From Gymnopus androsaceus JB14 (taxonomy: Eukaryota; Basidiomycota; Agaricomycetes; Agaricales; Omphalotaceae), in assembly GCA_009733575.1 (NCBI GenBank), contig ML769547.1, positions 90,506 through 154,505 of the forward strand: a DNA stretch of 64,000 nt, in the 5' to 3' direction. The notes below the pieces were generated by a model. It searched no databases and was not told the DNA's origin. It worked only from the letters and a program-made list of their open reading frames with translations. Shown here in pieces: positions 2,391 through 23,967 of the stretch. Within the stretch, counting starts at the first letter, position 1. Each line of letters begins with the position of its first letter. Both the position numbers and the translations under genes were made by a program.

Positions 2391-3162
2391 GGTGGTTGGG
2401 AATCAAGAAGACCTGAGACATTGTCAGTGAATAACGCTCCATCGTCTGTGTTGAAAGAATGATCATCGGCCCCGATTGACGAATCGCTACGGCAGTTGTT
2501 TGACTAGATCTTTATCCTGACAATGCGCCTCCGACTTTGAGCGCCCATTAGCGCCCTACGCAGTCGGGTTTAAAATTTGAAATCAGCAGGAAACTTCTCT
2601 CACCATGACTGTCGAATACGACTGCCTAGCGTTAGTATCATCTATCTACAGTACATTCATGCAATATAAAATGTACTAAATGAACGTTAGACAGATTCCA
2701 ACTACCCTTCACGATCTTCCGACTACTTACTATGCAGTAAAATGACTGGGCAAAATCCGACTTCCAGCACATACCAATATCTTGTTTCGTCATCTTCGAT
2801 ACGATCTTTTTAATTCCTGCCTATTTTCTACTTGTATGCAGTCTTGATCGTGGGATCGGGCACTTTGGACAGCCCAAGTGGACCGGTTGCCATTATATAT
2901 TAATAATGATTTAAGGCCTTGCCTCGTATTTAACGCTTTGACTGGCTTCTATCGCTATGGTACATAACATCGAGATACACCCATCGTTCCAAATAACGTA
3001 TTATGAAAATTGATTCAAATACGACTGAGGAGAGATATAGATCCAAGTAAATATAGGATGTAATGTAATTCTAGTAGTGATACCAATACAGAATCTGAGT
3101 TGGGATTATGAGATCAGTACAGTGTATAATGAAACTACAATAGATTTTACTTCAGGACATTT

Positions 3163-6100
3163 CTAAAGACCTTCAGGACTAACGAAATTCAGCAATTCAT
3201 CCACTTTTGACATGAATGAAGTCCAATCTTCTTGACTAATATCGATAACAAAAGGGTCAATAAAAAATATGCACACAACTTGAAATATTACTCACTTTGG
3301 TTCACCCCAAGTGGAAGCCCCAGCCCCAGGCCCCGCAGAAAACGCAACAGGGTAATCCAAACCAGACAAGGGATCCGCACCACTAGATGAAGATCCGAAC
3401 CCGTACGATTGTGGGTTTTGGGGTTGATGTACGTCAAAAGACTGCTGCTGAACCGGCGCAGCCACGTTAATGGCATAGAAAGGATCAAACAAAGAGCCGG
3501 GAGCAGTTGGCTGATGGAAAGCGCCAGCTCCAGTGTTTGAAGCTATCTGGTCGAGACCAGAGAAAGTAGGACTTTGCAAAGCGTTAAAAGCTCGCTGAGA
3601 GCCGGCGTATTGACGTTTAAAATCTTCTTCCATGGGGTGCGGTTGGGAGGTTTGGAAGTCGCGTGTGCGCTTCAACGAATCTTTCTGTGGAGGCGGAGGC
3701 ATTTGGCTGACTGATATAACGGCTTCAAGAATGTCGCTGAAGGGGAGGAGCAGGTTTTTTGTTAGACGAAACGATGGCAAATAATCCTTGACATACAATA
3801 AACGTCCCGCATATTCATATCTAGAGAGAAAAGCCTCTGTGAGTACGATAATTCAGTGCGAAGTGCTCGATGCTAACCTTGTTTCATATTTGGCCAAATG
3901 CTTCAAGCAGTTGGACACATCGTTCATATCATTCCTAGGATCGTAAGAAGATTTGACGCGTATACTGGTCCATAAATTAATGAGAAGCATTGTTGCCGCG
4001 ACAAATGTTGGTGCCTACACAGAGCAAATTTCAGTACAGGCGACATCAACCATGAAAAACCTACCATATAGTTCGGTAGCAGGGGCATCTCAGGCCGAGC
4101 CATGTAAACGTCGAGCATATGTCTGTGAATGTGAAGATGATCAGGGACAGTGCGAAGGATGTTCATACTTGACGCACATAAAGGCTCGTGAAGCGTTGGT
4201 ACAGATAGCTAAAGATGGAAAGTTGCCTGTTGAAAGTGGGCCGGGTCGGATAAACAATTTGTGGATTTGTATCTAGAAAAGCACCCATGGTAAATTCTCG
4301 AAGATAGAGAAGCAAGATAGTCGCCGCTTACCTGTACCCAGTAATAATTGGAATGCATCATCACTGTTTGCGCAAAGAGAATCTCATCTGAGCGGTTGGG
4401 GTCCCACTTTACTGTAGACTGTGTAAGCAAGAGATAGAAAAGAAAAATATATCTATCATGCTGCTCACAGTGCTCTGGAAGCTCGTCGACCCAGCTATTC
4501 AGTGCAGAATCAAGTTCCATGACAATTTTGTTAGTGTTTTCAGGTGAAGAATCCAACCAAGGGGCGGCTTTTCGTGTTGTGAACTGTTCATTGTCAAGAT
4601 TAGTACAAACGTGTGAGATACGAGACTGGCTTTCAGACTTACAAGATGGTCCTTCACCAGCCCAGCGATCCGGAGGAGCTTCATGAAATGATGCCAGTAA
4701 GACATGTGCGAGGGCTTGCCAATCGGTTGTGTAAATTCCATCTGCGGATTCGAGGGAATCTCCCAGTACTCGTCGTCACACTCGGGGGGAAACTCGAGGT
4801 CGAAACTAACAAAGGGAGGAAGGGTGAGAAGGATGCTCATACAATCGAAATATGCAACGCAGTGACTCACTCATCCTCTCTTGTTGAGCGGGGACGACCC
4901 TACAGAATGGAAAAACAAAAAAAGGATTCTTTAGGGCCAATCCGGAGAACCATATGTGAACAACATACCAGAGCAATGCACATGTAAAGATCTGTCGATA
5001 TAATGCTCCAGAACGCTCTTTTCCACATTTCTTGCTCTAATCGAGTCTGTGCTGGCTTTTTCGTTACATTCCCTTTCCGATGTGCTCCGACTTCTTGTGC
5101 TGCCGTATACCAAGTCCAGTCAAGAACCAAGCTATATCGGATACTGGAGTCGGGAATAAGAAGATTACGGCCAACTGTAAGATGGGATGGTTAATTGATG
5201 AGCCTTCAAATCAGTAGACGATGATACGTACAGAGTATAGCTGTATATCGTATAAAGACGACGCTCCTGTAAATCTGGTCTTCATCAATCGAATCTGTTC
5301 AAAATATCTCCACCCCGCAGATCGCAAGTCCTTCGTCCCATCGGCCAAAGTCCTGGGATCATTAGACACTTTCGAACCCAAAGCGCACACGGCTAAAACA
5401 ACTGCACCGAAACGTCGGTCGGTGAGATGAAGTTGATCAACGTAGACCTGGCGTTCGAATGTTTGCCGATGTAGAACTGGGTAGACAATCTAAGATAGCT
5501 TGGATGTTAGCCTGGTACCAAGGAGAAGGTTTTGCTACCAACATGTTGCTTCTCGAAGTACAAAGTGAGAAGGTCGCGGAAAAGGTCAGGTTGTGGGAAC
5601 ACGTAGGTTGGATCCTCAGGTTCGGGTAGGAAGCGATGCCACTGCGATAGATAGATTAGGAGGTAGAATTTGGGAAACAGAAGGTTAACGCACAGGCGCT
5701 CGGACCCAAAACTCGCTCCTCCTTGTCCCTACTGAGATAGTCTTTGCTGAGCTCCCACCATTTGCTTCATCTCGGATACTTAAAGCTGTCTCTTGAAAAC
5801 GGATTTAGACATCAGTAAGGATCAATGCCCATTATTAGAAACTCACGAAGAAGCATAAGATGACTGCTCTTTCCTGTTCAGAGACCGTATCAGAGAGTAC
5901 ATATCAGGGAAGAGAGAATATAACTTGCCGACATGTCTGTTATAAAATTCGTCGTCGAGACTGAGACTCTTGACTTGGAGTGTGAGTGACTCTTCTGGGT
6001 CGTCGACATCCTCGGAAGTATCGGAAAAGGGACTTGGTTTAGAGACAGGAGGAGGAGGAGGTGAGGAGGATGACCGTTGCTCTAAAGCTTGTTCTAATTG

Positions 6101-7146: not shown

Positions 7147-8846
7147 TCAATAAATCGATGTACCTCCTAATCCCATCCCAGTCTGCAAGCACTTGCTTGC
7201 CTCTTCTTCCAAAAATATCGTGATCTCGTCGACAAGGCACTTGTGAGGAATGACATTGCCAACATCCAGATCATTTACAGCACCTTCTTCCACAACAATC
7301 TGGTCCGAGTCTGTAGTAGCCACGTTCCCATTAGAACAGGACAAAATCTGAGGTGCATCGGCAGTAGTCGATTTCATCGGCCACGGCTCAAGGACTGCCA
7401 TCCAATGATCCTGCGTCAGTTCCCTCTCAAGCTCCATAGCATCGAATACATGATCGTCTTCACGCTTGACTCTCGATACCGTCTGATCCATTGGCGGTAT
7501 GATGGCTTTTACGCGACGCACTGAATGCTCGACCACCCCGCGAAAATGAGTTATCGGAAGTGCCTTGACGATATGAGCTGGGACAAAGGATGACGCGGGA
7601 GGAGAGATTTTGAAATTTCCCCATCCATCGTCTTCAACAGATGCCGCGATAGAAGTATCAGCAACGACGGTATCCCAAGCTTTACCTCCGGCAGAACCAC
7701 TCCCCCAGCCGCCTGAAGAAGCATCTGCTCCCCAAGAGCCGACGGATCCCCACCCACCAGTATCCACAATTTCTTCGCATTCAATGGCCCGGGGAACCAA
7801 GGAATCAGATGTGGTGTTGTCCTGTGCTGGTTTTACAGGGGATTTTTTCGCTTTAGATTTTCGATTCCCTTTCTTCTTCTTTCGATTCGAGGCTTCCAGC
7901 GCCATCGGGACTTCAACACTATCCACATTTTCTGTCTCCTCTGGAGCAATACTTTCCTGTGCCAACACCATCGCCGTGCCTGTGGTGTCACCCAAAAGCT
8001 CTTTACACGTTAGATTGAAATGATCGGGACAACTTTGGCCTATCCGAGAAAATAGTCCCAACTCGGTTTTTGCTTTTTCGATAACAAGAAGGGCGCGGTG
8101 AAGGTCGTCTTCTTTATCAGGGAGGACGCGATTGACGAGAAGAAAATTGATGTAAAAGAATAATAGTTTCGGTATGATATCGCAATTATGTTTTGAGCTG
8201 TTCAACATCAAGTCACTAGTAGACGATTGTTGGTTGAAGCAATACTTACAAATGTAAACCTTTTTCGATAAAATAGCTGGAAAGATAGATTTGAATGACG
8301 AGACCGGGATTGTGCGCTAATCTCGTGAGTCTGGGTAGTTCGTCACCGGCAGCGTTTTCGAGGAGACCAGCGTAGACTTGGAACTGGAAATGACCGTAAG
8401 TGCATTCTCCTCGAGCCCCAAAAGAATCAAAGATAGTGCTAACCTGATCCCATCGATTGCGAACTTGAGTTTGAGATATTGGCCAGACACGATTCTTATT
8501 AAAGGCCTGAGTGGCTTCAGTCAACCTCTGGAACGTCGTCATATCTCTGTCCATGGTAAGTAAAAAACCAATATGTCAGACGAATGATCTTAAAGTGGAG
8601 TGGCAATGAAAAAGTAAATGATTCTTACTGGTCATAGAATAGCGAGCGAATTGAGCAATTCTCCTGCCACGCCTCCCACCAGGTCTTTTCTGGAACGGAC
8701 GCACTCAAGCTAGCGGCGGCGCGAGGTGCGAGTGCCCAGTCTGAATCACCAAGCTCCAGCTTTACAAATTTAGTCTTCTTCTTCTTCCGGGTATTTGTGT
8801 TACTATCAGCGACGCGATCATCACTTGAGTATTTTTCTTTGGGCAT
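7147..8846 (-). CDS. Arb1-like Argonaute siRNA chaperone candidate with WG motifs
   Basis: Spliced from the start at 8846 through exons near 8625-8846, 8450-8550, 8245-8375 and 7147-8211, ending GGTSIY. The N-terminus is Lys-rich. A middle exon reads NRWDQ then FQVYAGLLENA and NPGLVIQIYLSSYFIEKG. The next exon carries INFLLVNRVLPDKEDDL, a run like KTELGLF, then CPDHFNLTCKELLGD. That order of blocks resembles my memory of fungal Arb1, a subunit of the ARC complex that holds duplex siRNA on Argonaute. After an NLS-like Lys/Arg stretch comes a Gly/Trp patch (GGWGSVGSWG, GGWGS, DDGWGNF) of the kind that binds Argonaute hook pockets. The family call rests on remembered pattern, not on an alignment; the WG patch is directly visible. 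Confidence 0.5.
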
Positions 8847-9335: not shown

Positions 9336-10338
9336 TCAAGGCTTAGAGAACATGTGGACCGTAAAGTCCCCAGTAGGAGAAGGCATTGCGCCGTTCGCGC
9401 GCTCTCGGAAGCCCATTGCCAGATATTTTTGCACCTGATACCAGTTAATCACCACCACGATCAAGCAAAAGATGTCCAGATATCACATACGTTCACTTCT
9501 GGAACCGTAGCCAAGCCAAGGGTACATCCATTCGCTTTTGCCTGTAACTCGTCAACTTCCACAGAAAACCCATATGGCGGAAGAACGAACATCTTTCTCT
9601 ACCCTTTCGACAATACCCGTTGCGTACCCTCGTCCTTGATACTCGGGATCTGTCGCTAGATTTACGCACCACCATCTGTGAGCCTTATCCTAGATTTCAT
9701 TTAGCAGTATGTCACGGTACTGATTCGTTAAACCGAGTACTTCTTTAGTCCAAGCCTTTTTCGATACATCTCCCATGACTTTTCCGCACTTAAGGACTCC
9801 TTGGCGATCAAGAATGCAACGTTTAGAAGGAGCTCCATACCTCGTTCCACCATTCTTGTGTCTCTGGGGTCAATTTGGCAAAGAAATCGTTGAACCCAAG
9901 TGCGCGTTGTGCATCTCTGTACTTCATACGTCAGCATATCCGAATGAGGGACCCAAAGACGATGATTTCGGACGTTTGAAACAGATCATTGCCTGCCTCG
10001 TACCAGACTCCGATGGAAACGATCTCGTTCTTCTCGTTCTTCACCACGTATACTCTTCCTTCCAACAGCCCGGCGCGAATCAAAGATCTCCAATAGTCCG
10101 CTTGGATATCCCAATTTCCTCCTACCAATGCTTTGATAGCAATGTCTGGGAGGAACTCTTTTCGTCAACGCCTCGGTACTGAATGTCGCCCTCCACTCAC
10201 CACCGTAATAACATTGATCACACATCTTCGTCGCGACCTCGATCTGCTTCTCTATGCGAGCTCAGCGGGACTTCTCCTATGAATGTTCAATGGCTTACCA
10301 GTGAGGGTTTTTACGTGCTCCACGAATAGGTCAGCCAT
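9336..10338 (-). CDS. GNAT-family acyl-CoA N-acyltransferase
   Basis: Predicted soluble acetyl-CoA-dependent N-acetyltransferase. Splicing gives a continuous protein starting MADLFVEHVKTLTEKQ at 10338. It continues through DIAIKALVGGNWD, GRVYVVKNEKNEIVSIGVWY, AQRALGFNDFFAKL and EWWNE, then the signature WWCVNLATDPEYQGRGYAT. Within this, QGRGYA is the acetyl-CoA pyrophosphate-binding loop. The protein ends AKANGCTLGLATVPEVN, VQKYLAMGFRER and TVHMFSKP. At least seven introns of about 45-60 bp are needed; one donor is weak (gtccga after the LFQT codons). Length is about 230 residues, normal for these fungal single-domain GNATs. The substrate is unknown. The start was chosen because the next upstream Met lies across a likely splice acceptor. 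Confidence 0.75.
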
Positions 10339-10668
10339 CGCCTGAGATGAAGAACGAGGGTTAGTGGCAACCATGCGTGGTACAAGGGCGGTAATACTGA
10401 TGATAACGGAACAGATGTGCTCTTGCGAAAAATGCAAAACTCATCATCTCAACAACCATTGATACGACTTGGATACGTGAACCAACAACAATGTGGCAGC
10501 TTCTATTCGACTTGATTATCAACGAACGCTTCTGTAATGATACATCTGCTGATCCCAGGTTTTCCGGTACCGGTGCTTCATGGAGTTTACATTCCATTCT
10601 CCGTTTTATCCGTTTGTCTCCGGGTACTCTGACGAGCCTAGAAACACTATCGTTTGTCCTTCCCCGTC

Positions 10669-11638
10669 ATGTATTCCTCCCAGAAGTACGAATCCATCCC
10701 TCAGAGCGATGATGTCATTTCGAATGCTACACTTTACGGAGGTGAGTGTTCATGTTAAAACCCGCAATCAATCGACTTACTGTATCTCAGGGTTCTATGA
10801 ACGGGTTTCTGAGCTCTTCAACCATTATGCTACAACTCTTTTATGGCTTTTCTCTGCCGTGAACCTTTCCATCGGGCTACTCATCGTGGCGCGTCTATAT
10901 AACGACTCACCCCTCCTTTACAATGTCCACAAGCTCGAATCTCGTAGACCTTACATTGGCTTCGACTCGATCTACAGCAACCGCTCTTTTTTGACTACGA
11001 CGTACCCACCTATCCACAACCAACCCCGTGTTCTGGCGCCCGTATACGCCAATGAACCTGACAAGGTCGCACCAGTATGGGCAAACCGACATCTCACTGC
11101 CGATGGCTACGTTCCAATCGCTGAACGCCGCCTTTTTGTCACTCCCGAGGTAAGTTCCTTCCGATGGATGTAAAGAGCTTCGATTAACTTGGGCTGTAGG
11201 TGTCTACAATCGTGCAATTCCACATTCAAGACTATGGAATGGAGAAATGCAGTGTCACCCTTGAAGTTCCGGCTTTCAATGCTAGTGACCGATACGCTGC
11301 TATCTGGGGCAAGGATGTCGCTCTCGATATATGGGCACTCGAAGGCGAGAGTAAAGTCGATTTTCAAAAACTATCATGGCACACCAAGCCCAAGCGAAAG
11401 AATCATATTGGCAAAATCACCTCTCCTTCATACAATTCAACGCAGGAGCTGCCTACCTTTCCGTGTGTTTCGGGCACGTATCTAACCTTTGAGGTCACTT
11501 GTGCTTCACTGGATTGCCATGTGGATGTTATGCGTGCAAAGTGGCCAGAAGGCTGTAAGTTTTTTCTCAATTGATTGCATTGAGCGCAGCTGATATTCTC
11601 TCGCAGCATTTTATATTGTGCAACAGCAGTCCATTTAG
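10669..11638 (+). CDS. Single-pass membrane protein with But2-like extracellular domain
   Basis: Four exons (10669-10741, 10791-11149, 11200-11554, 11607-11638) give about 272 residues with no frame problem. A short cytoplasmic N-terminus precedes one hydrophobic helix (TTLLWLFSAVNLSIGLLIVA). The luminal or extracellular part begins with RRPYIGFDSIY and contains STIVQFHIQDYGMEKC, TFPCVSGTYLTFEV and paired cysteines (CASLDCHV). This layout matches basidiomycete proteins annotated as But2 C-terminal-domain proteins, whose role is not known. The topology is seen in the sequence; the family name is from memory. It is the first gene of a group that continues with UstYa-like proteins on the same strand. 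Confidence 0.6.
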
Positions 11639-12029
11639 CGGCAGCGCCGAGGAAAAAAACACTCTATCTGTACTAAACGTCAAATCTATTATTTTGGTTA
11701 TCTCCGACTTATCCTTGCGATGTAGATGCCATGTAGATGCATTTTTACAAGATCTTTAGATTCTACCACAGCAATATACATTGTGCGGTCTTTGACAATC
11801 TCTAACGATGATTGTGCTCATGCTACATCCTCATGCCTTCCTCAAGTTTCCAGAGTGCCAGCGGAACTTTCCGTTCATGAAAAGGAGCATGCTTCGCGGG
11901 TACTTGAAACTGGATACAATAAAGCATATAATTTCGCGTATCCGGATCTTTGACGAATCAACAGATGCGCAGAAAAATAATCGCGATTTTTTCCGTTCAA
12001 GTTTTACTTCTTGCTTCCCTCCAGCTACG

Positions 12030-12755
12030 ATGTCGACCAGCCGAACTTCCCCTTGGTCTTCGACACTTTTACTGAGTTTCTTAATCATCTTTAATGTTGC
12101 GCTGACGGTGCTTATCAGAATGAGCCCGTTCTTCAAATTTGACGAAGTGGAGATAATCCAAAGTGCCAGTAAGTCTCTTGTTGCTCGAGCACGATTTGTT
12201 CTCACTAATTGGCGCTGTTAGATTTGCATGGAGAGGACTATGCCAGACTATGGCCGGTGAATTTTGGTGAACCTGTAAAACTGTTTATCGAGGACACAGT
12301 GCACTATCAGCTCGAGGGCACGACAGACAACGACAACGAATGGGAAGCTCTTACTCCTGGGGATGGAATAGTATACCTGGGCGACGATCATGAGCCTCAC
12401 AGCATCACTATGTTCCACTCCCTCCGCTGCTTGAATGTACTGCGCCAAGATCTCTCCTCGAAACCCGTCCCCATTGCATCCGACTTAAGCCGGCACTGTA
12501 TGAACTATCTTCGTCAAATTGTATGTCCTTTACTATTGCTCAGAGGTTGAAGAGCCTGCTGTTAATTTGTTCGGCATTCAGATTACCTGCAATTCCGACT
12601 TACATCTCGCACCTTTAGTCGGATATCGACGGAACGCTCACCCTGATGTGTATATGTGTCGTGATTGGTCTGCCGTATATCAGAAGTATGAAGAAAACCA
12701 AAAAGAACACCTGCGGTGGCTATTAGAAAACGCGCCTAAATTACCACGAAAGTGA
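12030..12755 (+). CDS. UstYa-like (DUF3328) oxidase family protein 1
   Basis: Three exons: 12030-12168, 12222-12520 and 12582-12755. An N-terminal signal anchor (LLLSFLIIFNVALTVLI) is followed by the DUF3328 core. The core has DEVEII, a WxxLxPGDG-type block (EWEALTPGDGIVYLGDD), MFHSLRCL, then HCMNYLRQ, ITCNSDLHLAP and CRDW. UstYa relatives carry two HxxHC-type motifs and are copper-dependent oxidases or cyclases that modify secreted ribosomal peptides or other metabolites in the secretory pathway. Here the first motif is HSLRC instead of HQLHC, so one presumed metal ligand is replaced by Arg. About 203 residues. It lies next to a tiny secreted-peptide gene and faces a second UstYa-like gene. 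Confidence 0.8.
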
Positions 12756-12775
12756 GAATAATAGAGCTCGTTGTA

Positions 12776-12802
12776 CATATGGTTTTACATTAAAACCATA
12801 TG
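12776..12802. terminator. Perfect 11-bp stem hairpin after UstYa-like gene 1
   Basis: Bases 12776-12786 (catatggtttt) pair perfectly with 12792-12802 across a five-base loop, 21 bp after the stop codon. It may be a 3'-end or RNA processing element, or merely a chance or MITE-derived palindrome; position is the only support for a role. Confidence 0.4.
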
Positions 12803-13093
12803 GTAGTACTAGAGACCTTGAACAAAGAGCTCCAACGGTGACAGATTGTTCGATCCGTTACCTCCAAAATGCTTCAACGTGGGCTATTTTCAGCCCATCG
12901 ATCTAGGAATCATGATGAACAGGAATGCATCTCGCTGAGGATACTTTGATCGTAAAGGAAGCAGTGCGGGAACGTCGTGATAGCAAAACTGAAAAAAAAC
13001 ACATATACATTCGGCGACTTCCTTCTCAAACCGATATTAAAAGCACAAACTAGAAAATCACTGCGAAGAATACCTGGCATCTATTTGCCCATC

Positions 13094-13288
13094 ATGAGAA
13101 ATATCTCTTTAGCCCTCTTTTTCCTGGCCTTTGTCTTCGTATCGAGGGCGGTAATCATTCCTTCAGATAGTGTAGAAGGTAAGTTCCAGCTATAAGGCCC
13201 TTGTTGCAAGAACTGATTCAATGCAGCCGAGGCTATGGAACGGGGTCCTCAGCCAGCGGAGTCGCTGAATGACAGTGATGACTTCTAA
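13094..13288 (+). CDS. 48-residue secreted peptide between two UstYa-like genes
   Basis: Two exons, 13094-13178 and 13227-13288, joined by a clean GT-AG intron that splits an Ala codon. The start at 13094 gives an obvious signal peptide (MRNISLALFFLAFVFVSRA). A short mature part follows, beginning VIIPSDSVEAEAMERG and ending LNDSDDF. There is no Cys, Tyr or Trp, and no dibasic Kex2 site or core repeat like those of known dikaritin precursors. The mature part does hold an EAEA-like stretch and an acidic C-terminus ending in Phe. An in-frame Met exists upstream at 12977, but it would bury the signal peptide. Placement between two UstYa-like genes makes it a candidate precursor peptide; it could equally be a small secreted effector or a chance ORF. 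Confidence 0.5.
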
Positions 13289-13729
13289 CCTTTCGTAAGT
13301 CAATATCGGCTCTTTTTCTTTTGGAAAAAACCAAATACCTGTTTCCAGGGAATATGACCTTTGACCACTCCTACGGTGTATATTCGGATCTTGCATATGA
13401 ATAGTGTCATCCTGTAGAGAATTACCCATCGATTTATCTCGATCTCGTACAGGCTGCATTGTGTAGAGTCATCCCAGCCTAGTAGAAAATTTAAACATTC
13501 AAGTATCTGAAAGCGTGGGTTTATAATCTTACTACTCAAGAAGCATTTGAAACCAAACTTCAAAAAATACTTAGTGCAATTCTATATTGCATTATGGGCT
13601 GTACTATAGAGCCGACAACCGGGGACTCGGCAGTGCCATGATTCAACGCAACTCATCCATGGCTCGGTATTATGATTTCTCGACATTAGGTACTAATGTC
13701 CGCCGCTATAGAGATCGTTCAGTAAGGCG

Positions 13730-14503
13730 TCAAATTTCAACAATTGAAGACTGACCAGTGATGTTGTGCTCCTTTGTATAACGATACCACTGAAGCCAGT
13801 TATGGCCGATCTTGTCATAGATGTACTCCCAATCTCTACAGACATGAGTAGAACCAGAGCGCTGTACGGTGAAGTTCTGCTTCATAAAGTCGCCTCGCTC
13901 GAGCGTGGTGTCTGCTTGACAGAGGCTCTAATAGGAGAGGAATGATTAACGAAAAAAGGAAACTGTCGAGCAGTCCATACCGTGGATCTCAAAAACGAGA
14001 GACAGTGTTGTACATGACCAGGTCCTTCGGGGTCTTCAGAGGTGAAATATGCCCTCATACGCCGCAAGCAATGGAGCTGGTGGAACATGACAACAAAGAA
14101 GCCTCGATTCGTACTGTCTGATTCAAGACGATAGCTTCCAGCACCCCAAGGAGAGTTGTATAACCACTCTTTTTCTGCTTCAGGATCGGTGAGCGAGTAA
14201 TGTACAGTTTCCTCGACGGACATGAGGACGGCCGGAGGCAGCTCAACGGGAAGAAAATGGGGAAAGTCGTCGCCTTCCAAACCTATTGAAGATGGTGAAA
14301 CCGATCTTTCACCGATGAAAAATCTCTCACTTACTGTAATGAGCAGTACTAGTCGAATGAGCCGCAAGGAAGTCGAGTGAACGGGTAGATTTTGAGGACG
14401 ATGTTTTTGACAGAAGTTCATAAAGAGTTTCCGTCAAAAACAACGAGGACAAGCAAGCCCCAATGAGCAACACTGTCTGAGATTTGCTGAGAACATCGAA
14501 CAT
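13730..14503 (-). CDS. UstYa-like (DUF3328) oxidase family protein 2
   Basis: Three exons from 14503 to 13730. An N-terminal hydrophobic segment (TVLLIGACLSSLFLTETLY) is followed by FPHFLPVELPP, EETVHYSLTDPEAEKEW, then the canonical MFHQLHCLRRM and HVQHCLSFLRS. The protein ends SLCQADTTLE, HVCRDWEYIYDKIG. Both HxxHC-type motifs are present, unlike gene 1, so this copy has the expected copper ligands. About 223 residues. It runs toward the secreted-peptide gene and toward UstYa-like gene 1, so the three genes form a convergent group. In ascomycetes paired UstYa proteins often act on one substrate; extension to this locus is inference. Confidence 0.82.
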
Positions 14504-14571
14504 ACTGCAGATACAAGAAGACTGTACAGTCTGGAGTTAAGAAACGGCGTGTGGCCCGGCACCCGGCACCG

Positions 14572-14594
14572 CTAGTCCATCATAGATGGACTAG
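14572..14594. repeat. Perfect 10-bp palindrome upstream of UstYa-like gene 2
   Basis: ctagtccatc at 14572-14581 is exactly repeated inverted at 14585-14594 with a three-base spacer. It lies about 70 bp upstream of the minus-strand start at 14503 and about 320 bp from the plus-strand start at 14917. This is a divergent promoter region, so the palindrome could be an operator-like site for both genes. Confidence 0.4.
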
Positions 14595-14916
14595 GCTGGT
14601 GATTTTAGCTCCATGAGGGAATCCCGGCAATGCTAACGTGGTCTTCACCAAAGGAATCATCCAACTACAACTACTTCATGCATATTCGAACCTCCGAACG
14701 AGCGATGAACCAGGCCTTCGATCGTATTCTGCAGCTGGTATTTATGCGCTCAATTATGCGATGTTCGGGATCAATCCTACCCACCAGAAATCACCTCACC
14801 TTTATCATTGACAGCTGATTCAATTGCAACTAAGTAGAAGGCACATGCTTGTAATAATGTCTCAGTATTGGGATTCAAAAAGAGCAGCGTTCGTTTGGAG
14901 CTCACCATAAACGGTC

Positions 14917-16125
14917 ATGTCGACAGCTGCAGACCCAATAGTTTTGCCTCTCGAAAGGTCGTTTTACATTGGAAATGTCTTCGGGAACATCTTCTATGGC
15001 AAGTCCCGCTTCAGTGACTTTTTCCACTTTTGTTTATTGTCCCCGCAGGCGTACAGATATACATTACCTTTCACTCCATATACCTTCTTCTACACTCATC
15101 CAGTGACCGGAGAACGAAGAGCTTCTATGTGGGGTATGGGATTGTGATGTTGCTTTGTATGAGTTTCGCTATGATTGCCAACTCGCTCCTGGGTCAAGAA
15201 ATGTGGATCGAACATCGAAACTATCCTGGTGGTCCGGTCGCATATTGGACTGACAATGGTGCAGTCTGGTATAATGTCTTGGGTTCAGCGGCAGATATGT
15301 TTGGTAATTTCATGGGCGACGCTCTACTTGTGAGTGTTCTTTTGCATATTATTTTTCAGATTAGATAATAGTCTGCGCATAGGTTTACCGACTTTATGTC
15401 ATCTATTCCGGGAAGTGGTATGTTGTCGTTTTCCCTTTCTTAATTTTCTTGGCCTCCACTGGTGAGTCTACCCGCCTTGTGCGCCGCTTCTTTTGGTTAA
15501 TCGTGCTCTGCAGCTCTCGCTATAATGTCTGTCGTTCAGAGCGCCCTTCCGGGATCCAGCTTCTTCGAAGGAAACGATATTGTATACGCCGTTCCTTGGA
15601 TTTCCTTAACATGTTCACTGAACGCAATTATCACGATCCTAATCGTTGCGAGAATTCTCAGTGCGAGGAGGCGAATTAGGAGCGCCATGCCGGAAGACAT
15701 GGCGACTGTTTATACCGGAGTGATCGCCATTCTTGTCGAGTCCGCCCTCCCGTTCACTTTGCTTGGAATCGTATTTGCTGTTCTTCTGGGAAAGAATTTA
15801 CCTGAGCAGCTGGCACTTTCACTGACCATGGGGATACTATGTTGTAAGCACTGTCAATGCTACTCTGATGTCGCAAATTTGTTTTGCTGATAAATGCTCA
15901 TAGGGTTTGGCCCCACAGCTCATTATTCTCCGGGTAGCTATGGGTCGTGCTTGGTCCAAGAATACGTCGGCTCAAGTCTCTACGGGACTTGATTTTGCGC
16001 ATAGTGATGCTCCCACTAACGATTCCACTCTGAATGTCAATGCTCGTCATGACATGGCTTCCCGTCGCTCGAAGAACTCCAACATTTCTAACGAAAAACT
16101 GGGTGTTGGTGCCTCTGCCGTATGA
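14917..16125 (+). CDS. Seven-helix membrane protein of a basidiomycete family
   Basis: Start MSTAADPIVLPLERSFYIG. Exons are joined by short introns and give about 310 residues. Hydrophobic segments include VQIYITFHSIYLLL, VGYGIVMLLCMSFAMIA, VVVFPFLIFLASTALAIM, WISLTCSLNAIITILIVARI, GVIAILVESALPFTLLGIVF and a last pair near the C-terminus. The cytosolic tail is Ser/Asn-rich (SRRSKNSNISNEK). This arrangement matches large, uncharacterised families of receptor-like proteins in Agaricomycetes; ligand and G-protein coupling are unknown. The first intron uses a GC donor (gcaagt at 14999). The gene is divergent from UstYa-like gene 2 with a shared 410-bp promoter region. Confidence 0.7.
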
Positions 16126-22638: not shown

Positions 22639-23967
22639 ATGTCATCCACTAGTAGCAGTTACCAGCTGCCCGATCTTCTATCCCTCTTTCAGGGCTACCA
22701 TGAAATGAGCGTGAACAAGCATTGTCGTGCAGCCAGCTCCGCGTCGCAAGAGTGGATACGAGGCCTAGCTCAAGAAGGCTTGGAGTCACCTGCGTTGCCT
22801 CCTGACAACGAGCTGACGAGTATGAAGCTTGGTCTGCTCGGAGCATGCTGCTTTCCAAGCTGCGATCTGACTCAGCTCATCCTCATAATAGGTACAGTCC
22901 AAACACTCGATTCACGAGACGATCCGAAAGACGATTCAAACCAATAGATGTCTGGTCGTTAATTGTTCTCGATACTCGGACTGTTCTGAGGTCAGATCCT
23001 CCTACGAGATGCGACTGGAATCTTGCGAACGAAAATTGTTATCCTGGTTTCCTCGATCTGTTACAGGCGCATCCTCTCTTTGAGCGGTGAGTGACAGCCG
23101 GTCAAAGTATAGTACATGCTTATTTTTATCCCGAATACAGGCTTTCGCCTCGACTTTCCAGGTTCCGAGAGAGCACATCCGAATGGTGGCAACAGCGCTT
23201 CGCGCGTTCCATAGCTACCCATAGAAGTTCCCAACAACGGGCTATAGATTATCGACGAGCAGGAAGTGTACCCAGGGTCGAAATTGACGAGTATATGAAC
23301 TTTCGGCGTGACCTTGGTGGATTAAACATCATACTCGACCTCATCGAAGCTGTCGAAGGGCTTGATCTTGATGTTCCGATACACAACGAAAAATTATGTA
23401 CTATGCGGCGTCTCGCTGGGGATATCATAGTATTGACATGGGTGAAACTTTCCACCCTCCTGAACCAGCCCACGTACTGACCAGCTTACTTTTCAGGATG
23501 TGTTCTCTTACAACATCGACCAGTCTCTTGACAACAAGCTCAATATCGTTTGCGTTCTACAATCAGAACGAGAGGCCGGGCTGGCTAGCTCTATCAATGA
23601 AGCTGGTAACCTCATCCGGCAAAGGCTCGAACAATTTAAAGCACTTGAGGATAGCCTGCTCCTTAACGCCAGTGCCCCTCTTGGTAATGCTACTTCCACT
23701 ACATTTAGTTTATCGTGGCTTTGGAATAATACACCAAAAATAAGAGGCTTGCCAGATTCGACTTTGATTTCCCAAAATCAGGTGCATGATGTGGGGCTTT
23801 ATGTTCGTGAACTCAAAGATTGCATGGTGGGATTCCTGAACTGGGCGTACGAGACGGATATGTTTTTCAAAACAAAGGGAGAGTCTGTGAAGAGTTTTGG
23901 ATGGGTGTTTTTGTCACCGCCGAATCCCAGAGCCAACTCTACAGCTTCTGCCACGGCAGTGGAGTAG
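22639..23967 (+). CDS. Class I terpene synthase-like protein with degenerate metal motifs
   Basis: Five exons give about 340 residues. The fold is recognisable from EYMNFRRDLGGLNIILDLIE, LRRLAGDII-like sequence (MRRLAGDIIVLT), FSYNIDQS and KLNIVCVLQSE. This matches fungal sesquiterpene cyclases of the terpene cyclase-like 2 group, which ionise farnesyl diphosphate using three magnesium ions. The two metal motifs are abnormal. The aspartate-rich site reads LDTRTV where DExxD-type is expected, and the NSE triad reads WDVFSYNID, so Asn is Trp and Glu is Asp. Spacing is normal, so this is not a splicing artefact at the second site. It may be a pseudoenzyme or a divergent cyclase. Confidence 0.72.

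Follow-up and report, generated by a model that had tools for sequence, protein, structure and literature searches.

Members of the UstYa family carry out difficult C-H chemistry on peptides, and UstYa genes beside peptide precursor genes are a known arrangement in ascomycetes. Here we describe a locus of this type in the basidiomycete Gymnopus androsaceus JB14, located in a 64,000-nucleotide (nt) stretch of contig ML769547.1 (the window) at the end of that contig, C165 in our numbering of the 83.3-Mb assembly; it holds two UstYa genes, ustA and ustB, with a gene for a probable 48-residue secreted peptide between them. The dikaritin pathways (ustiloxin, asperipin-2a and phomopsin) are similar in that UstYa oxidases adjoin the gene of a secreted precursor, and ustiloxin also has two UstYa genes per cluster; a sister precursor on contig C191 further resembles those of dikaritins in being repetitive with KR sites. 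Unlike a dikaritin precursor, the one proposed for the window has a single core, no Kex2 site and no tyrosine, and of its two oxidases only one has all four motif histidines, the other being short of two.

The cyclochlorotine hydroxylase CctR, a DUF3328 protein that acts on a non-ribosomal peptide, is a lumenal copper- and oxygen-dependent homodimer in which four histidines bind two coppers, and its motif alanine mutants are inactive (PMC12435403). The window proteins resemble CctR in a predicted single N-terminal membrane helix and pair of motif helices, and ustB also in its HxxHC...HxxHC motifs; unlike the CctR homodimer, a canonical and a motif-deficient member are paired here, a pairing observed at the level of genes. 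In PMC12048977, two HXXHC motifs are present in all signature genes of the lichen clans aligned with UstYa and UstYb. The Kex2-processed repeat proteins (KEPs) of agaricomycetes share the secreted precursor design (PMC9769878; PMC7329392), and arrays on contigs C191, C6, C5 and C13 of our genome resemble them in carrying dibasic sites between units; unlike these, the window peptide itself is not a KEP. In PMC9769878, the KEP peptides detected were linear and minimally modified, and neither "UstY" nor "DUF3328" occurs in its text. DUF3328 genes were found near 103 of 1680 basidiomycete KEPs (6.1%), according to passages of PMC7329392, in which this rare co-location was read as a sign that cyclisation perhaps hardly occurs in basidiomycetes.

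The gene structures, the family membership of the enzymes, their co-location and co-duplication, the motif loss and the likeness of the peptide to sister precursors were established directly; we infer that the peptide is expressed and serves as a substrate, and also the heterodimer, its chemistry and the roles of the accessory genes. On balance, we judge it fairly probable that the locus is a UstYa-type ribosomal-peptide cassette, taking substrate, heterodimer and accessory roles together.

Organization of the locus

Gene models were rebuilt from GT-AG introns and open frames, the exons of ustB being taken from the listed donors, acceptors and frames, and families were assigned at the curated Pfam cut-offs (25 bits for PF11807, 24.2 for PF09792 and 20.7 for PF00583). 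From left to right, the genes encode an acetyltransferase-like protein (minus strand), a But2-like protein (plus), ustA (plus), the peptide (plus), ustB (minus) and a seven-helix protein (plus), as follows.

9552..10440 (approximate limits), minus strand: GNAT acetyltransferase-like gene of several exons; its open reading frame (ORF) 9552-9689 matches PF00583 (Acetyltransf_1) with 25.1 bits
10669-10741, 10791-11149, 11200-11554 and 11607-11638, plus strand: But2-like membrane protein, four exons, 272 amino acids (aa); PF09792, 30.3 bits
12030-12168, 12222-12520 and 12582-12755, plus strand: ustA (A-type UstYa), three exons, 203 aa; PF11807, 49.5 bits
13094-13178, plus strand: peptide gene, exon 1; predicted signal, some 19 aa long under a simple rule, then the pro-segment VIIPSDSVE of 9 aa
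13179-13226, plus strand: peptide gene, predicted intron of 48 nt, phase 1, GT-AG (GTAAGT...ATGCAG)
13227-13288, plus strand: peptide gene, exon 2, which includes the stop; AEAMERGPQPAESLNDSDDF is the proposed single core
14503-14335, 14282-13981 and 13927-13730, minus strand: ustB (B-type, canonical UstYa), three exons, 222 aa; PF11807, 54.9 bits
~14917-16125, plus strand: seven-helix receptor-like membrane protein gene of several exons; the seven helices were judged by eye

The rebuilt models agree with an earlier note on this DNA, which had named the But2-like, ustA, peptide, ustB and seven-helix genes and had the two UstYa-like genes converge on that of the peptide; the coordinates and the PF11807 matches, both over the cut-off, bear this out. 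The same note had missed that the UstYa genes are of two kinds and that the But2-like and seven-helix companions recur. The ustA protein is identical over its full length (100%) to BT96DRAFT_998394 of G. androsaceus JB14; for ustB, a partial protein of the same strain, BT96DRAFT_886486, matches 63% of the length at 99% identity. The DNA of the locus matched itself alone in its own genome, so no second haplotype copy is available for testing constraint.

Two types of UstYa genes

Both HxxHC motifs are complete in ustB (HQLHC...HVQHC) but not in ustA (HSLRC...LSRHC), in which, numbering the motif histidines H1 to H4, H2 is replaced by Arg and H3 by Leu while H1, H4 and both cysteines are kept. 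The same state was found in A-type genes on contigs C339 (HQLRC...LTQHC), C71 (HQLGC...LADHC), C191 (HQLQC...LAHHC) and C531 (HQLEC...LARHC); a further A-type gene, on C599, has also lost H4 (HQLEC...PAQFC). Five A genes are intact and have H4; in these, R, R, G, Q and E stand in place of H2, but always Leu in place of H3, and the constancy of Leu would fit a dispensed catalytic position better than a new ligand. Among eight database homologues of ustA (ustA itself and an ORF of the same DNA excluded), six have both losses, one, from Irpex, has lost H3 alone, and one is canonical. All seven ustB relatives read (window, C191, two in C339, C71, C371 and C699) have both motifs complete. An alignment of 27 proteins covering the two types has H1, C, H4, C and one Arg as its sole invariant positions. 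The ustA clade that has lost H2 and H3 of HxxHC...HxxHC is new here; the literature searched, by titles, abstracts and passages, gave no account of the A/B split or of precursors with a single core, though one may exist elsewhere. Random decay of ustA was rejected as an account of its motifs, since their state is common to several genera.

Motif loss of another kind was seen on C64, where UstYa genes (L016 5766-6137 and 7571-7921, minus strand) have a second motif FPDHC or TVDHC and a complete first motif nearby; this partial loss differs from that of the A type. On C445 (L038 ~2690-4000), a copy of the A-type gene of C531, interrupted by an in-frame stop, lies together with a But2-like fragment near a retroelement-like sequence. 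Near the A-type gene of C531 itself is an alpha/beta hydrolase (Abhydrolase_1; L030 2348-3415, minus strand), proline iminopeptidase-like by eye.

Structure models predicted, with middling confidence, a single N-terminal membrane helix and paired motif-bearing helices for both types, at residues 8-31, 109-125 and 134-149 of the A-type model and 3-33, 120-137 and 142-159 of the B-type model (a Lentinula orthologue). A Foldseek search of the PDB with the B-type model returned 28 matches, none at E 0.001; of the searches for solved structures, one gave no match and another a single antibody chain at E 0.85, as expected by chance. If the predicted helix pair is antiparallel, H1 would lie by H4 and H2 by H3, so that the A type would have lost exactly one pair. 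On this basis, a heterodimer is proposed, with ustB as the catalyst and ustA in a half-site or structural role.

Pairing and co-duplication of the A and B genes

Relatives of ustB are present on the contigs of four of the six A-type genes (window, C71, C339 and C191). The distance between A and B is about 1 kb in the window, less than 1 kb on C71 and 15 kb on C191; on C339 the A gene has a B gene on either side. A Helitron-like ORF (PF14214, PF20209) found between the A and B genes of C191 (L029 6368-10000) may explain their wider separation. The A and B labels were assigned from motif and similarity ahead of the phylogenetic analysis; in the resulting 32-protein tree, the A genes formed one side of a branch with support of 97/98. 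The C339 and C71 genes come out as sisters twice, with support of 99/94 for type A and 100/98 for type B, and the two window genes each group with a protein of Lentinula lateritia (100/99 in both cases). Parallel topologies of this kind are what a joint duplication of A and B would produce.

The candidate peptide and its relatives

A secretion signal, MRNISLALFFLAFVFVSRA, was predicted in the 48-residue window peptide by a simple hydrophobicity and cleavage rule; beyond the likely cleavage site follow VIIPSDSVE, the exon junction and AEAMERGPQPAESLNDSDDF. The peptide has no dibasic pair and no tyrosine, and no repeats were found at window positions 12700-13800, which upholds the view in the earlier note that Kex2 sites, core repeats and tyrosines are missing. 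The intron, which had been called confirmed, is predicted from sequence alone by its GT-AG borders. The signal and the intron had also been offered as evidence for the gene; both are present, but 34 signal-bearing, chance-like two-exon models, 15 of them phase 1, occur in the 64-kb window, so the two features alone are weak evidence, and as proof of a peptide gene they were rejected on this count. The gene, which is probably real, becomes credible through sister clusters elsewhere in the genome, and only through them. A search of 5.8 billion database proteins gave no match and no candidate with three words in common, and in its own genome, at E 10 or better, the peptide matched only itself. 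Identity as a mating pheromone was considered and rejected, since there is no CaaX end and, apart from an "ER" residue pair, none of the family traits fits.

Contig C339 holds three two-exon peptides, p1 (48 aa), p2 (47 aa) and p3 (48 aa), each with a signal, then nine residues to a phase-1 junction and then a short exon-2 core: p1 reads MKLTLASSIILAFFTIFQFANG, TVTPDDEAD and AAILDAEPAPAAFIGLA, and p2 reads MKFILAPSYILAFFTIFQFANG, AVAPKDEVD and AAILDAAPAPAIFIGE, while p3, which lies 28 kb beyond these two, has the C-terminal end AAVLDATPAAAAFIGHQ. The mature parts of all three are free of tyrosine. The window peptide agrees with them in length, signal, nine-residue segment and phase-1 junction, and p1 and p2 are placed, as it is, between an A gene and a B gene. 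Its best local alignment with p2 covers 19 residues, ungapped, across the splice site with the junctions in register. Ranked by the part after the signal, it came first of 176 candidate models against p1 and likewise against p2, a count in which alternative splice models of one ORF are separate entries and the C339 locus itself is left out. Of 20000 shuffles, 85 reached its score against p1, 3 against p2 and 124 against the C191 unit. The exon-2 search motif was written after the C339 peptides had been seen, and p3 lacks its P-x-P part.

The C191 precursor (L028 1728-2865) is encoded by nine exons comprising a signal, an acidic segment and seven units; the units are 69-nt exons of the type AAALEVPQPLAVFKRTIDNDPAE and variants of it, six of the seven with KR, and all junctions are phase 1. 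Kex2-separated repeated cores are thus present in this sister precursor. We consider the C339 peptides and the C191 precursor likely relatives of the window peptide; in a likely history, each short gene would contain a single unit and stop after it, and the exon would have been multiplied in C191 with the gain of Kex2 sites. The lack of significant likeness between p2 and the C191 unit, given below, speaks against such a history. The sister loci on C339 and C191 support the idea of the earlier note that this is a UstYa-type secreted-peptide locus, although that the peptide is the substrate of the pair is a part that we still infer.

Precursor arrays beside other UstYa genes

Tandem arrays with dibasic residues, with periods of 57-139 bases, were found in 7 of 24 UstYa neighbourhoods (three on C5 and one each on C6, C13, C14 and C191), a set that leaves out C342, C437 and C159. 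Their units include ARTVPEPDNVFAAKYTTLDKREEA (C5), GNNAAYAYTNPNVNDDA (C14), DSSSAASATTTPLTPPPLIFAKEAWEAEKR (C6) and EEDTIAFSAGPDGTWLKKR (C13); the arrays other than that of C191 were recognised by script and eye, and leaders were seen for the three C5 loci only. Together with C339 and the window, 9 of the 24 neighbourhoods of this genome have precursor-like genes or arrays. No tandem array was found in the 64-kb window, the rest of which was the only stretch in the scan without other UstYa genes. The arrays of L013, L014 and L015 (C5), L018 (C6) and L019 (C14) resemble one core per exon with short introns, and that of L021 (C13) resembles repeats within one exon. Several of the precursors carry each core on its own exon, and some are very small, so that annotation may overlook them. 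On C699, identical inverted-repeat arms (L041 171-899, minus strand, and 4990-5718, plus strand) flank a But2-like gene and a UstYa gene, and each arm holds a small signal-bearing ORF (MQQLIFLIAILSIPAMVQG...). A methyltransferase-like ORF, judged by eye, lies near p3 (L040 3650-4790, minus strand).

Companion genes

Genes of the But2-like and seven-helix kinds recur beside UstYa genes. Across the genome, the But2-like protein has homologues on eight contigs (15 exon matches at E 0.01), and each of these contigs also has UstYa matches; C437, which resembles a copy of C342, was left out of the count of loci. Seven of the eight But2 loci are 0.6-7.0 kb from a UstYa gene, and the eighth, on C339, is 31 kb from a UstYa gene and 3.7 kb from p3. 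If the loci are independent, the chance of seven of eight lying within 8 kb is ~1.5e-15, with the window counted. Only the window protein exceeds the PF09792 cut-off (30.3 bits); single-exon pieces of its paralogues gave 18.3 bits for C191, under the cut-off, and no match for C531 and C71. At E 1e-8 or better, seven-helix homologues were found only in the window, on C191 and on C6, in each case no more than 4.4 kb from a UstYa gene; the protein had no Pfam match at E 0.1 and no NCBIfam match at E 0.01. Pieces of the acetyltransferase-like protein matched C191 DNA, one at 45% over 60 aa (E 5e-12) and another at 44% over 25 aa, and the related ORF of C191 itself had no Pfam match. Among the scanned ORFs near the window locus, 10 in one Pfam scan, no tyrosinase or methyltransferase was recognised. 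Elsewhere in the window, we observed an Arb1-like ORF at 7150-8316 (minus strand; PF09692, 32 bits against a cut-off of 25), Arb1 being an Argonaute chaperone subunit family, and a weak terpene-synthase-like ORF at 23464-23964 (plus strand; PF19086, 19.3 bits, under the cut-off).

Alternative explanations

Several results weigh against the cassette as we propose it. The chance-like two-exon models of the window are numerous, as noted above, and the window peptide could be a decayed unit because it has neither the Kex2 sites of C191 nor the FIG ending of C339. Compared by exon 2 alone, it ranks first against p1 but only third against p2, and 1655 of 20000 shuffles scored as high as p2 against the C191 unit, which is not significant. 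The ratios of nonsynonymous to synonymous substitution (dN/dS) among p1-p3 were 0.35 (Fisher p 0.013), 0.74 and 0.90, the last two not significant; p1 and p2 are 83.3% identical in coding DNA, 77.8% in the intron and 80.1 and 83.3% in the flanks, so that the coding DNA is no better kept than the 3' flank, and this substitution pattern gives weak support for a functional frame. The earlier note had made conservation of the peptide and peptide genes near other UstYa genes its test, and the outcome is divided: likely relatives occur on C339 and C191, but no peptide gene was found on C71 (6 kb read; A, B and But2 genes) or C531 (10 kb read; A and But2 genes). For the A-type genes of C531 and C599, no second UstYa match was present on the same contig. 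In L. lateritia, the longest contigs given for the A and B homologues are not the same (98,215 and 27,874 bases), so their pairing there is putative, and the single-chain structure models are of middling confidence (pLDDT 70.8 and 67.1).

Part of this evidence would also fit a dying or spurious remnant of a Kex2-repeat gene, the UstYa pair then acting in trans on the C339 and C191 precursors or on another metabolite. Signal-like two-exon models are common by chance (the 34 in 64 kb), the features of the C191 and C339 peptides just named are missing, and neither a database homologue nor a second genome copy at E 10 or better was found; however, the frame, signal, nine-residue pro-segment, junction phase and length agree with the C339 peptides, the first rank among 176 on the post-signal part is not what a random ORF is likely to give, and the position flanked by A-type and B-type genes is shared with p1 and p2. 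We consider such a remnant unlikely. An account in which ustA is a decaying paralogue of ustB with no role in the reaction is highly doubtful. In its favour are the missing two of four copper ligands, the inactivity of motif alanine mutants of CctR, the further loss of H4 at C599 and the in-frame stop of the C445 copy; yet the pair of losses seen in ustA, alongside retained H1, H4 and cysteines, recurs in six of the eight database homologues, the A genes of C339 and C71 were duplicated together with B, and H3 is Leu in all five intact A genes that have H4.

The cassette might instead make a signal, with the seven-helix protein as its receptor and the UstYa pair and acetyltransferase-like protein finishing a ligand for self-recognition or development, not a toxin. 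The seven-helix family occurs at three places only (E 1e-8), each beside a UstYa gene and two of them, C191 and C6, with repeat precursors. Passages of PMC6339444 contain a speculation on receptors for Ste13-marked basidiomycete peptides, and 6 of 16 Pleurotus UstYa-like genes were developmentally expressed according to PMC8893723. However, the seven-helix protein belongs to no recognised family, so a receptor role is a guess and a transporter or tolerance protein is possible, and no seven-helix neighbour was present in the stretches of C339 and C71 read; we regard a signalling role as rather unlikely.

Proposed mechanism and implications

In the UstYa-type cassette that we favour, the 48-residue protein would enter the secretory pathway by its signal of about 19 residues, leaving the acidic nine-residue pro-segment VIIPSDSVE, which would be kept, followed by one exon-2 core, AEAMERGPQPAESLNDSDDF. 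Because the core ends at the C-terminus of the protein itself, a Kex2 cut would not be needed there. Both ustA and ustB would be single-pass membrane oxidases facing the lumen of the endoplasmic reticulum or Golgi. With its complete copper site, ustB is the likely catalyst of hydroxylation, desaturation, cross-linking or a similar reaction, for example on Pro, Leu or Met, and ustA is most likely its heterodimer partner, a half-site or non-catalytic subunit that would hold the substrate. The acetyltransferase-like protein may acetylate the product, the But2-like protein may traffic it and the seven-helix protein may sense or tolerate it.

A more far-reaching version, with an obligate two-gene UstYa oxidase of complete and half-site subunits, Kex2-free single-core peptides, a seven-helix sensor and repeat precursors derived from the same unit by one-core-per-exon duplication, seems to us decidedly unlikely; if true, it would amount to a signalling system of basidiomycetes based on ribosomally synthesized and post-translationally modified peptides (RiPPs). 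A member of the family that keeps two of the four copper histidines, mostly beside a complete partner, offers a test of the binuclear site and of heterodimer action. The precursor-like genes or arrays in 9 of 24 neighbourhoods of this one genome bear on the conclusion drawn in PMC7329392. The repeated A/B gene set with its tiny peptide gene hints at a little-explored class of modified mushroom peptides.

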